From Clostridia bacterium (GTDB taxonomy: Bacteria; Bacillota; Clostridia; TANB77; CAG-508), in the NCBI GenBank assembly GCA_017524665.1, contig JAFXVF010000015.1:62001-126000 (forward strand): a stretch of 64,000 bases of DNA. The letters are read 5' to 3'. The notes beneath the pieces are model-generated. The model had not been told where the DNA came from, did no database searches, and worked only from the letters and a program-made list of their open reading frames with translations. Position numbers and translations under genes: made by a program. Positions 1,338-60,655 of the stretch are shown piece after piece (positions within the stretch are counted from its first letter, which is position 1; every line of letters begins with the position of its first letter).

Positions 1338-1346
1338 ACTTAAAAA

Positions 1347-1370
1347 ACCCCGCGGTATTACCCGCGGAGT
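1347..1370 (-). terminator. Rho-independent terminator of the AAA+/M41 gene
   Basis: GC-rich hairpin with arms pairing around CCGCGG (about 9 bp counting G-U pairs) and a 6-base loop, followed by a U6 tract in the minus-strand transcript. It begins 14 bases after the stop codon. The GC-rich stem contrasts with the AT-rich terminators of the neighbouring host genes. Confidence 0.85.
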
Positions 1371-1383
1371 TTTGAGTTGGTAT

Positions 1384-3387
1384 TCACTTCTTGCGCTTCA
1401 AGTGTCTCTGCCAGAGGCTTTCAACCTGGTCAGCGCTCATGATGTGGTTCTTCAGGAGTGCACGGACCAAAATGTCCAGGAAGTCCTTATGCTCATCAAT
1501 GATAGCTTCTGCTCTCGCATAAGCAAGATCAATAAGCTTTTGAACCTCTTCTACAACATGGTCTTTCGTCTTCTCGGAGAACATTGGATATTTGTCAGAA
1601 TTCAGGAATACAGTGTTTCTGTCTTCGCCGTCTGCCGTCATACCATAGCGTGTAATCACCTCAAACGCGACGCGAGTCGCATTGTTTAAGTCAACACACG
1701 CACCACTGGTAATCTCTTTCCTGAACAGCTTTTCGGCGACACGTCCGCCAAGGTCTAATGCCAAAAGGTCAATAAAGTACTGCTTGCTCGTAAAAGGAAC
1801 CACATCCCTCTTGTACTCAAAGCAAGTAATACCCAAGTAGCCTTCTGCAGGCATTATAGAGATTGCAAGCAGCCTGTGCTTTATCAATCTCTCAGAAAAC
1901 CTTGCTACAATGTAGTGACCCGCCTCGTGGTATGCAGTTTCTTTCCGTGTTTCCTCGCCCATTCCATCAAACGTGTCAAACTGAATTTGGAAATTGGCAA
2001 GTACACATTCTTTGTCAACAGTCTTCTTTCCTCTTCGATAGGCAGTCACCATGCTTCTGTCAATCAAATCCAAAGTCTTATCCGGATTTTTCTTTTCAAA
2101 AGCAAAGCAGTTAGCTATCATGATGATATACTCGACCATTGTCTTGGTAATCCTTACACCGTGGAACTTTGACAATGCTTTTATCTTGTTCACGATCATA
2201 GGATACACTTCACTCACCAACGGTTCTTCGACGTCAACTCTCTCGAAACGTCTGGACAGAGCAGCATCAGAGGAAAAATATCTGTTATACTCCTCTTCAG
2301 TTGTTGCACCAATCACGATGGTGTCTCCCCGCGCCAGAATAGGTTTCAATGCATTTGCAAGGTCCATTTCACCTTCGTAGCATGCTCCTGCTCCAAGTAA
2401 CATGTGCACCTCGTCGATGAACAACATCACCTTATCGTGCTCTTGCAGAAATACAATTAGGTCTTGGCTTCTTTTTTCTGCATCGCCTCTGAACTTTGTA
2501 CCTGCAATAAAGCTATTGACATCAAGGCTCATCACGAGGAAATCTTTGAACGTTTCGGGACAAGTCCCTGTAACAATCTGGTATACAATTTTCTCAATGA
2601 TAGCTGTTTTGCCAACGCCAGCCTCTCCAACAATCACCGTATTGCGCTTGTTTTTCTTGAGAGAAATGTTCCAAATCTGTTCGGTTTCCTTTTCTCTCAT
2701 CAAGATTTCACAGGGTTTGCTTGGGTCAACTCTGTCGTTTAGGCATGTCAAGAAACTAGAAAGAGCAACTGGAATTTTAGCAGCCTCTGCAAGACAAGCA
2801 AATGTGAACATCTTTTTTGCTTCTCTGTAGCTTGCATTTGTTTCAATGAAAAGCTGCTTCAAAACCGGAATGTCTTCGTCAAACATGACTGCCAGAATGT
2901 GTTCAGGTTCTGCACAAGTTGTGTTATTTTCCTTGCACATTATCGCAAGTTTTCCAAACACCATACCTACGCCCTGAGCAACAGGATACTTGTGTTTTTT
3001 TCCAGATTGGTCAGTGAGTATCAGGTCACCGTCATGTTCTGATTTGTACCGTTTAGGCCGTTCTGCTACTTCTTTCGTTGCATCACCTTTCTCCTCTGTG
3101 TTACCCTGTTTGTTTTCTCCGTTTTCGCTGCATTCCTCCTTATCCTTGATTTCAAGTTCCGTCTGCTTATCACTGAGAAGCATCAGCACAAGCCCTTCGA
3201 CATCAGCTACTGATTCAATGGTGTCATCATCAATGAGGCAGTCTGCAAGTTGGGAATCGTCGCATACCGCAAGTTGATACAGAAGAATAGGTAAATTGAT
3301 AGCATCAAAGTGCCACAACACCATTTCTTCCATGCACTTGTCTAGTATCTTGATGGTCCGCTCTGACATTTGAACCTTGAAGCTCAT
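1384..3387 (-). CDS. ClpA/ClpB-type AAA+ module fused to FtsH-type M41 zinc metallopeptidase
   Basis: 667 residues with an unusual domain order. Residues 1-200 include two short Clp-N-like helical stretches around a charged linker. Residues 225-450 are a Clp D1-type AAA+ domain: Walker A GEAGVGKT 254-261, pore loop AGTKFRG 295-301, Walker B FIDEVH 323-328, sensor GATT 360-363, arginine finger SRRFE 378-382. Residues 480-667 are an M41 peptidase with HEAGH 487-491 and the likely third zinc ligand D566. No membrane segment is seen, so unlike FtsH it should be a soluble ATP-driven protease. True FtsH has its own AAA type (GPPGTGKT). The start is set by AAGGAGGT seven bases before the ATG. Base composition is GC-richer than neighbours, and CGG encodes R10, R110, R113, R353 and R481, a codon absent from intact AT-rich genes here. 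Transfer is inferred; the donor is unknown. Confidence 0.9.
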   Translation of the reverse strand: MSFKVQMSERTIKILDKCMEEMVLWHFDAINLPILLYQLAVCDDSQLADCLIDDDTIESVADVEGLVLMLLSDKQTELEIKDKEECSENGENKQGNTEEKGDATKEVAERPKRYKSEHDGDLILTDQSGKKHKYPVAQGVGMVFGKLAIMCKENNTTCAEPEHILAVMFDEDIPVLKQLFIETNASYREAKKMFTFACLAEAAKIPVALSSFLTCLNDRVDPSKPCEILMREKETEQIWNISLKKNKRNTVIVGEAGVGKTAIIEKIVYQIVTGTCPETFKDFLVMSLDVNSFIAGTKFRGDAEKRSQDLIVFLQEHDKVMLFIDEVHMLLGAGACYEGEMDLANALKPILARGDTIVIGATTEEEYNRYFSSDAALSRRFERVDVEEPLVSEVYPMIVNKIKALSKFHGVRITKTMVEYIIMIANCFAFEKKNPDKTLDLIDRSMVTAYRRGKKTVDKECVLANFQIQFDTFDGMGEETRKETAYHEAGHYIVARFSERLIKHRLLAISIMPAEGYLGITCFEYKRDVVPFTSKQYFIDLLALDLGGRVAEKLFRKEITSGACVDLNNATRVAFEVITRYGMTADGEDRNTVFLNSDKYPMFSEKTKDHVVEEVQKLIDLAYARAEAIIDEHKDFLDILVRALLKNHIMSADQVESLWQRHLKRKK

Positions 3388-3421
3388 GTGGAATACCTCC
3401 TTCTATAATAGAATTGCCTAG

Positions 3422-3450
3422 ATTATATCATTGCATTCGCATTTTGTAAA
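3422..3450 (-). promoter_or_regulatory. Sigma-A-type promoter of the AAA+/M41 gene
   Basis: TTTACA (3445-3450 on the minus strand), a 17-base spacer, then TATAAT (3422-3427). The start codon lies about 35 bases downstream, so the leader is short. Confidence 0.7.
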
Positions 3451-3537: not shown

Positions 3538-4263
3538 ATGTCAACACCACATAATGATGCTAAAGTTGGCGAAATTGCTAAAACAGTGATAATGCCAGGC
3601 GATCCATTTAGAGCAAAATTTATTGCAGAAAATTTTCTAGAGGATTATAAACTTGTAAACTCTGTTCGTGGTATGTACACATATACTGGAAAATATAATG
3701 GTAAACTAGTTTCAGTTATGCCACATGGAATGGGAAATCCAAGTATTGGCATTTATTGCTATGAACTATACAAAATATACAATGTTGAAAACATTATACG
3801 TGTAGGATCCTGCGGAGCTTATTCTAAGGATTTAAAACTTTTTGATATTATTCTTTCAAAAAATGTTTTTTCAGAAAGCAATTTTGCATTAACAATGAAT
3901 AATGAAGATTGTCATCAAGTTCCTTCATCACATGAATTAAATAATATTATAGAAAAAACAGCTAATGAAATTGGAATAAAAATTGATTTAGGAAATACCG
4001 TTTGTACAGATTGTTTTGATTTATATATGACAGATGTAAATCAATTTTTGTCAAGAATACCAAGTGGATTTAATCCATTGGCTGTAGAAATGGAAGCATT
4101 TGCTCTATTTTATACTGCAAAAGTTTTAAATAAAAAAGCTGCTTGCCTAATGAGTGTTGTAGATTCAAAATATATTACTGAAGTTGCCACATCTGAGCAA
4201 AGGCAAACAGGTTTAACAAATATGATTAAAGTTGCTTTAGAAGCAGCAACAAGACTTGATTAA
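3538..4263 (+). CDS. deoD: Purine nucleoside phosphorylase, DeoD type
   Basis: 241 residues, normal for hexameric DeoD. It catalyses phosphorolysis of purine (deoxy)nucleosides to free base and (deoxy)ribose 1-phosphate in the cytoplasm. Landmarks are GDP at 21-23, GMGN 64-67, RVGSCG 88-93, EMEA 184-187 (ribose binding) and D209 at the catalytic aspartate position. It is one of two AT-rich plus-strand genes in the window and is monocistronic, with its own promoter and a palindrome (4279-4335) at its 3' end facing mtnN. With mtnN it forms a convergent pair in purine salvage. Confidence 0.95.
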   Translation: MSTPHNDAKVGEIAKTVIMPGDPFRAKFIAENFLEDYKLVNSVRGMYTYTGKYNGKLVSVMPHGMGNPSIGIYCYELYKIYNVENIIRVGSCGAYSKDLKLFDIILSKNVFSESNFALTMNNEDCHQVPSSHELNNIIEKTANEIGIKIDLGNTVCTDCFDLYMTDVNQFLSRIPSGFNPLAVEMEAFALFYTAKVLNKKAACLMSVVDSKYITEVATSEQRQTGLTNMIKVALEAATRLD

Positions 4264-48743: not shown

Positions 48744-49235
48744 TTAGTGGAAGTCCGTCGAATAGTTGACTGCGTCGTATTTTTCCTTTGCCTTGGCAAG
48801 AACCTGCTGGGGATCTTTCCAATAGCTATCGCAAAAGAACGGGTGAATCGTAAATCCGAAATGCTCATATTGCCATTCAACATGGTACCACCAACCAGAT
48901 TCGGGAATTCTGGTGGCAATGACGTCAAAGTCATAATACCAGTCGCTATGGAATTCTGCAAGAAGCCTCTCGTATCCGTTCCTGTACCGAGCAGGATCAT
49001 ATATCGTATATTCACTTCTTCCAAAATCCACGATATATTTCCTGCCACATTCACTGCATGTAACATTTTCCAGCATAGTTTCCGTCGTCCGAGTGTAGTC
49101 TTCTCTTTGTATCACCTTCTCGGCAATTATGTTGTTAGCTCTGTCGAGAACATGTCTGCATTTACAGAACGGGCAATAGACGCAAATCTGTCCTTTTCTG
49201 TCCAAATACACAAAACATCCACTCATTTGCCTCAT
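48744..49235 (-). CDS. Zinc-ribbon protein of unknown function, GC-richer single-gene cassette
   Basis: 163 residues, not recognised. Cysteines at 18, 21, 24 and 26 with H28, then C60 and C63 (C-x2-C pairs 36 residues apart), suggest a zinc ribbon. The second half is aromatic-rich (many Trp and Tyr) with no motif I know. AAGGAGAG eight bases before the ATG sets the start. Base composition is GC-richer than neighbours. CGG encodes arginine at R49 and at the Arg of DPARY, a codon not used in intact AT-rich genes here. It lies just downstream of tRNA-Leu(CAA). Confidence 0.85.
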   Translation of the reverse strand: MRQMSGCFVYLDRKGQICVYCPFCKCRHVLDRANNIIAEKVIQREDYTRTTETMLENVTCSECGRKYIVDFGRSEYTIYDPARYRNGYERLLAEFHSDWYYDFDVIATRIPESGWWYHVEWQYEHFGFTIHPFFCDSYWKDPQQVLAKAKEKYDAVNYSTDFH

Positions 49236-49491: not shown

Positions 49492-49574
49492 TGGTGCCCA
49501 AAGTGGGACTCGAACCCACATGGTTTCCCGCACGATTTTGAGTCGTGTGCGTCTGCCAGTTCCGCCATTCGGGC
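49492..49574 (-). tRNA. tRNA-Leu (anticodon CAA)
   Basis: 83 bases including an encoded CCA. Seven-base acceptor stem GCCCGAA pairing with TTTGGGC (one G-U), the anticodon loop CTCAAAA flanked by CACGA/TCGTG, a type II variable arm, and a T-arm with TTCGAGT. It reads UUG codons. The zinc-ribbon cassette begins 50-100 bases downstream. Confidence 0.97.
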
Positions 49575-60154: not shown

Positions 60155-60403
60155 TCATGAAATGGTCAATCTGATGCATTTTCCATCATCAGATATTTCT
60201 GATTGGATAGTACTCACGACAATACTGGTTATCTCACCACTCATAATCTTATGCGCAATGTATGCTTGATACAGCTCTATCGGCTCTCTGTCAACATCAG
60301 TGAGGACACCACCATCATTCCGGTAGAAGTAGAACTGATTCTTGTTCTCGGTTTCTTGCAAGGTGAATGTTCCATCAGTTACTGCTTGGAATACATCTGC
60401 CAT
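60155..60403 (-). CDS. 82-residue protein of unknown function, GC-richer single-gene cassette
   Basis: 82 residues, not recognised. Predicted beta-alpha-beta, no Cys pair, one TM-free soluble domain. AAGGAGGAA precedes the ATG. Composition is GC-richer than the flanks, and CGG encodes R28 in FYFYRND, a codon absent from intact AT-rich genes here. It stands alone with its own promoter and hairpins, just downstream of tRNA-Leu(UAG). About 100 bases of non-coding 3' region follow. Third of three such cassettes in the window. Confidence 0.75.
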   Translation of the reverse strand: MADVFQAVTDGTFTLQETENKNQFYFYRNDGGVLTDVDREPIELYQAYIAHKIMSGEITSIVVSTIQSEISDDGKCIRLTIS

Positions 60404-60572: not shown

Positions 60573-60655
60573 TGGTGCGGCAGAGAGGACTTGAACCCCC
60601 ACGGTTTCCCACTAGATCCTAAGTCTAGCGCGTCTGCCAGTTCCGCCACTGCCGC
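60573..60655 (-). tRNA. tRNA-Leu (anticodon UAG)
   Basis: 83 bases including an encoded CCA. Acceptor GCGGCAG pairs perfectly with CTGCCGC; anticodon loop CTTAGGA between CTAGA and TCTAG; type II variable arm; T-loop TTCAAGT. It reads CUA and other CUN codons. The 82-residue protein cassette follows its terminator. Confidence 0.97.

Follow-up and report, generated by a model that had tools for sequence, protein, structure and literature searches.

The window, meaning the whole 64,000-nucleotide stretch analyzed, carries at positions 1384-3387 of the minus strand a single intact ORF of 667 aa, with an ATG start and 0 internal stops. Its neighbours on either side are genes for an ABC transporter (1-1212) and a deoD-like product (3538-4263). 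The features of this gene and its product are given below, with the basis of each assignment in parentheses.

1384..3387, minus strand: Clp-N / Clp-D1 AAA+ / peptidase M41 fusion protein, 667 aa (ORF, Pfam, NCBIfam, model)
3422..3450, minus strand: promoter-like TTTACA-17-TATAAT (11/12) of the fusion gene (sequence)
3396-3400, minus strand: GGAGG ribosome-binding site of the fusion gene (sequence)
2773..3387, minus strand: N-terminal region, residues 1-205, two Clp-N-like helical repeats (hhalign of the family against the ClpC N-domain profile)
3058-3141, minus strand: acidic disordered linker between the Clp-N-like repeats, residues 83-110 (pLDDT below 50)
2218..2772, minus strand: Clp-type D1 AAA+ core, residues 206-390 (Pfam, NCBIfam, PDB, Foldseek to ClpC1 D1)
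2605..2628, minus strand: Walker A GEAGVGKT, residues 254-261 (sequence and family alignment)
2485..2496, minus strand: Clp-type pore loop KFRG, aromatic, residues 298-301 (sequence and family alignment)
2410..2430, minus strand: Walker B VMLFIDE, residues 320-326 (sequence and family alignment)
2248..2253, minus strand: arginine fingers R379/R380 (sequence and family alignment)
2020..2217, minus strand: AAA lid of Clp D1 type, AAA_lid_9, residues 391-456 (Pfam)
1414..1959, minus strand: peptidase M41 domain, residues 477-658 (Pfam, E 2.1e-34)
1915..1929, minus strand: zinc-binding HEAGH, residues 487-491 (HExxH invariant in 37/37 members)
1690..1692, minus strand: third zinc ligand D566 (invariant in 37/37 members)
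1342..1367, minus strand: G+C-rich intrinsic terminator CCGCGGGTAATACCGCGG-GGTTTTTT of the fusion gene (sequence)

The first-pass annotation had read this ORF as a soluble fusion of a Clp D1-type motor with an M41 peptidase, and Pfam, NCBIfam, PDB, hydropathy and fold matches all bore this out. Pfam placed AAA at residues 252-383, AAA_lid_9 at 397-456 and Peptidase_M41 at 477-658, and the Pfam scan returned no other confident domain. The best NCBIfam model was ClpA (residues 203-447, E 1.8e-63; below the curated cut-off), and the match to FtsH_fam was confined to the M41 part (474-655, E 1.7e-31; far below cut-off), so that no FtsH-type AAA module was found by NCBIfam in the window protein. 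Consistently, a PDB sequence search matched ClpA/ClpC D1 at residues 209-449 (1e-51) and FtsH M41 at 477-656. Every motor motif named beforehand was recovered (among them GEAGVGKT, the AGTKFRG pore loop, GATTEEEY and DAALSRRFE), the FIDE of Walker B was present too, and the M41 domain was complete, with HEAGH and D566 in place, as had been claimed. No membrane helix was found in the window protein, whose maximal 19-residue hydropathy was 1.45, whereas the genome's own pair of ordinary FtsH proteins reached 2.76 and 3.27; by hydropathy, 0 of 37 family members carried a membrane helix.

An AlphaFold2 model of the window protein, built on the family alignment, reached a mean pLDDT of 81 and a pTM of 0.62 and left the placement of the N-domain loose. 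In Foldseek searches, its D1 matched ClpC1, ClpA and ClpB at ~37% identity and ~3 A, and its AAA+M41 unit matched human AFG3L2 (6nyy) over 495 columns with a TM score of 0.69 normalized by the target. ClpA and ClpC dock ClpP through their D2 ring. Both Pfam and the model lacked a second AAA ring with a ClpP-binding loop, the D1 lid running straight into M41; since M41 occupies the place that D2 has in ClpC, the ClpP-docking ring is absent by anatomy. Compared with ClpA, ClpC and ClpE, the protein shares a D1 with its lid (37% identity over D1) and probably a diverged Clp N-domain, but it has no D2 ring and hence no ClpP-docking loop, and its peptidase is a covalently attached zinc enzyme rather than the serine peptidase ClpP. 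With FtsH and the m-AAA and i-AAA proteases (MEROPS M41) it has in common a complete M41 domain C-terminal to one AAA+ module, while differing from them in the missing transmembrane anchor, the Clp D1-type AAA with KFRG instead of an FVG pore loop, the N-terminal Clp-N-like domain and an M41 clade of its own.

The N-terminal region was less readily classified. Clp-N-like helices had been proposed in front of the motor, and the family profile supported this: pooled from 22 members and aligned by hhalign with a ClpC-type N-domain profile made from related genomes, the N region matched with a probability of 97% (E 1.1e-11) over 140 columns, both repeats in order. For the window subgroup alone, the probability was 24%, and Pfam reported no Clp_N in the window protein at E<=1. 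Because the pooled profile matches with both repeats in order, we take the region of ~200 aa to be a probable diverged Clp N-domain that carries an acidic, disordered insert, an assignment for which only the pooled profile of the family gives a clear signal.

Full or near-full-length relatives of the fusion were found in 15 genomes in a search of 95 relatives, and the sister genome (G002) carries a copy at the same locus with 78% identity. A search with the profile A1 recovered the one-ORF fusion in ~44 of 287 sampled genomes of the order, one of which carries a C-terminal fragment only and some of which hold two copies, and no split genes were found in relatives. The same profile, at E<=1e-85, detected the fusion in 0 of 391 genomes of the class and 0 of 299 of the phylum outside the order. 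Recurrence of the same one-ORF fusion in dozens of genomes shows that it is neither chance nor an assembly artefact. The family has two named records, both of them Clostridia MAGs and one from roe deer omasum.

In a D1 tree, 27 fusion D1s lay on one side of a branch with an SH-aLRT of 100, outside ClpC, ClpE, ClpB and viral Clp, and in an M41 tree 37 fusion M41s grouped as a single clade (SH-aLRT 99), separate from the 30 FtsH proteins included from this order; both were quick trees with some long branches. Since each domain forms one clade, a single origin of the fusion fits, and the simplest reading of these trees is that it arose once, in one uncultivated Clostridia order. A viral origin was rejected, as IMG/VR, phage tblastn and a BFVD fold search gave separate Clp or FtsH and no fusion among the matches listed. 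So was a plasmid origin: no plasmid record covered 80% of the protein, and clpK/ftsH-like neighbours were found instead (H41-H45). No described family with the order Clp-N / D1 / M41 was found in Pfam, NCBIfam, PDB or the literature searched. The architecture is real, conserved and, as far as found, undescribed, the kind of machine (an AAA+ protease) being already known.

Within the family, HExxH and the Asp zinc ligand were kept in 37/37 members, and 31 of the 37, the window protein included, kept the full ATPase set of Walker A, Walker B and arginine finger. Among the 37 members, the N region averaged 14.5% pairwise identity, D1 42.7% and M41 32.7%; between the window protein and its relative at L037, the respective values were 34%, 75% and 58%. 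As the zinc ligands are always kept and the ATPase set mostly so, the peptidase would be the conserved business end, with a motor that is usually needed and an N region that varies most. Because the N-domain changes fastest, different family copies probably select different substrates through it.

In the remaining 6 of the 37, Walker A/B or the arginine fingers have degenerated next to intact M41 ligands, and at least four changes from an intact to a degenerate motor are required on the M41 tree. As at least six members have lost motor motifs, ATP-driven threading would not be needed in all relatives, and one may ask whether the D1 ring mainly assembles and gates the M41 ring, which would then cut unfolded or specific substrates with no processive threading. 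We regard this as distinctly unlikely: the ATPase set is complete in the window protein, as it is in 30 further members, and D1 is the best conserved domain.

Between the window and sister copies, dN was 0.13 and dS 1.36, similar to neighbouring genes; the fusion gene is thus under purifying selection in this pair. This bears on whether the protein could be a functionless remnant of ClpC or FtsH that decayed and became fused accidentally, as might be suggested by a D1 half of ClpC only and by the degenerate members. We judge such decay to be highly improbable, given the purifying selection, the invariant catalytic residues, the gene's own promoter and terminator, the dozens of intact relatives and a deep single origin.

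The flanks of eight further family copies, inspected by eye, resembled those in the window, with a stand-alone promoter and terminator, and the fusion appears from its sequence context to be an accessory, autonomously transcribed single gene. Its GC3 is 0.47 versus 0.19 (sd 0.03) for 24 other window genes, and that of the sister copy is 0.43. The two orthologues (window 1384-3387 and L036:9157-11160) are both of high GC3 at a dS of ~1.4, among neighbours of GC3 0.13-0.19. Recent transfer does not explain everything, since the sister copy is GC-rich too although synonymous sites are saturated, and a simple recent foreign acquisition as the sole cause of the high GC3 is doubtful. The earlier suggestion that the protease could be cassette-borne found partial support in the codon use, which looks foreign, and in the stand-alone transcription unit; the flanks, read by eye, showed promoter and terminator only, with no sign of a recombinase, att site or repeat, and the cassette status of the gene is unproven. 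An empty site was sought in three genomes of the same genus (G001, G003 and G004), in which deoD has other surroundings than it has in the window. A defence-island setting was not seen, the inspected neighbours reading as housekeeping genes from their sequences, and PADLOC gave the fusion no match beyond the generic P-loop (weak hits, best E 5.5e-4).

Two further single genes of the window, at 48744-49235 and 60155-60403 of the minus strand, are likewise GC3-rich (0.48 and 0.42) and contain no known domain. Each lies directly downstream of a tRNA-Leu gene (49492-49574 and 60573-60655, respectively) and has its own promoter-like and terminator-like sequence; possibly, these two represent a pool of mobile single genes. 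More GC3-rich genes on the same contig encode an alpha-amylase-like protein (L269:9487-11382), an SH3-domain protein (L262:11448-12182) and a WG-repeat protein (L270:15856-16464).

A TTHA0252 / CPSF73-type protein (~470 aa, with MBL, beta-CASP and RMMBL domains) was encoded within ~6 kb of the fusion in 11 of 36 loci, and in 9 of the 36 its gene lay 60-279 bp away, often head to head. The paired loci come from several genera, five of them being one syntenic site in one genus. Using genome lists compiled by hand from search tables, we counted accessory beta-CASP copies in 31/44 fusion genomes versus 76/243 others (Fisher p 2e-6, uncorrected for relatedness). The accessory TTHA0252-type family (L038:5088-6497 and 10 similar loci) is found stand-alone or adjoining the fusion gene, is distinct from the housekeeping copy of most genomes of the order, and is sometimes in tandem (L206, L208).

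These data raise the question of whether the fusion is half of a two-gene accessory system, for example a protease releasing, removing or co-controlled with an RNA nuclease in stress or phage conflict. Such a system is unlikely in our estimate, for all the proximity and co-occurrence described above: 25 of the 36 loci have no such neighbour, the nuclease is often alone, several paired loci are a single syntenic site, and no association was seen inside genus g46 (10/13 versus 11/15, hand count). PADLOC matches were weak, to P-loops and MBL folds. In one genome (G457), the same site holds the beta-CASP nuclease without the protease. In the window genome, no accessory beta-CASP nuclease was found but a housekeeping beta-CASP protein only, and obligate pairing was therefore rejected for this genome. 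The association between the fusion and the nuclease is non-obligate.

Two described arrangements come close to the fusion. Genes for ClpK and FtsH adjoin each other on plasmids and tLST-like islands (PMC8290217, PMC8407380); a Clp ATPase and an FtsH protease are together there as well, but side by side (H41-H45), the AAA family ATPase and the annotated FtsH being distinct proteins, with no fusion. The FtsH-containing MoxR-vWA conflict systems include unusual FtsH-type AAA proteins, one AAA copy being inactive (PMC7159879). They share with the fusion unusual M41/FtsH-related AAA proteins in an accessory setting; its motor, however, is a Clp D1 and not of FtsH type, and a MoxR or vWA partner was not seen adjoining the window gene.

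The order also holds other membrane-free M41 proteins. Two are 467-488 aa long, with an FtsH-like AAA module (L259:5517-6983, minus strand; L260:5197-6600, plus strand); the module lacks a clear Walker B acid pair, and both are encoded by stand-alone genes of GC3 ~0.5. A third (genome G061, L258:2848-8265, plus strand) is a protein of 1805 aa in which a C-terminal M41 is combined with three SpoVK/CbbX-like AAA modules (AAA_lid_6 type). From these, M41 appears to have been fused with several motors within the order.

Taken together, we consider it probable, at roughly three chances in four, that the window gene encodes a soluble, self-contained, accessory ATP-dependent zinc protease that would work as a Clp-like hexamer, with a variable N-domain selecting its substrates. 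In the homohexamer, a D1 ring would sit above the M41 disc in place of the AAA ring of FtsH; substrates or adaptors would be captured by the N-domain, threaded by the pore loops and cut in the M41 chamber. This enzymatic mechanism is one that we infer from the intact motifs. The hypervariable N-domain would fit the further suggestion that the protease may be directed against particular host proteins. To our knowledge, AAA+ proteases are few and textbook-stable, the motors of ClpAP, ClpCP, ClpXP, FtsH and Lon each keeping their own peptidase, and we know of no precedent for a single D1-type AAA ring driving a fused peptidase, so that the coupling of motor and peptidase is putative.

More tentatively, the family may be a clade of soluble degraders in a gut Clostridia order, in which M41 received a Clp D1 ring as its new motor, together with a hypervariable recognition domain of Clp-N type, and which spread as stand-alone single genes, lost the motor several times and often joined a beta-CASP nuclease as a conflict or stress module. 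A natural, selected and diversified swap of this kind would indicate that the interface between motor and peptidase can be exchanged during evolution. The fusion would serve as a soluble, single-chain model of M41 proteolysis that is free of a membrane anchor, as well as a scaffold with a variable recognition domain, and the loss of the motor with retention of the peptidase asks whether M41 needs ATP-driven threading.
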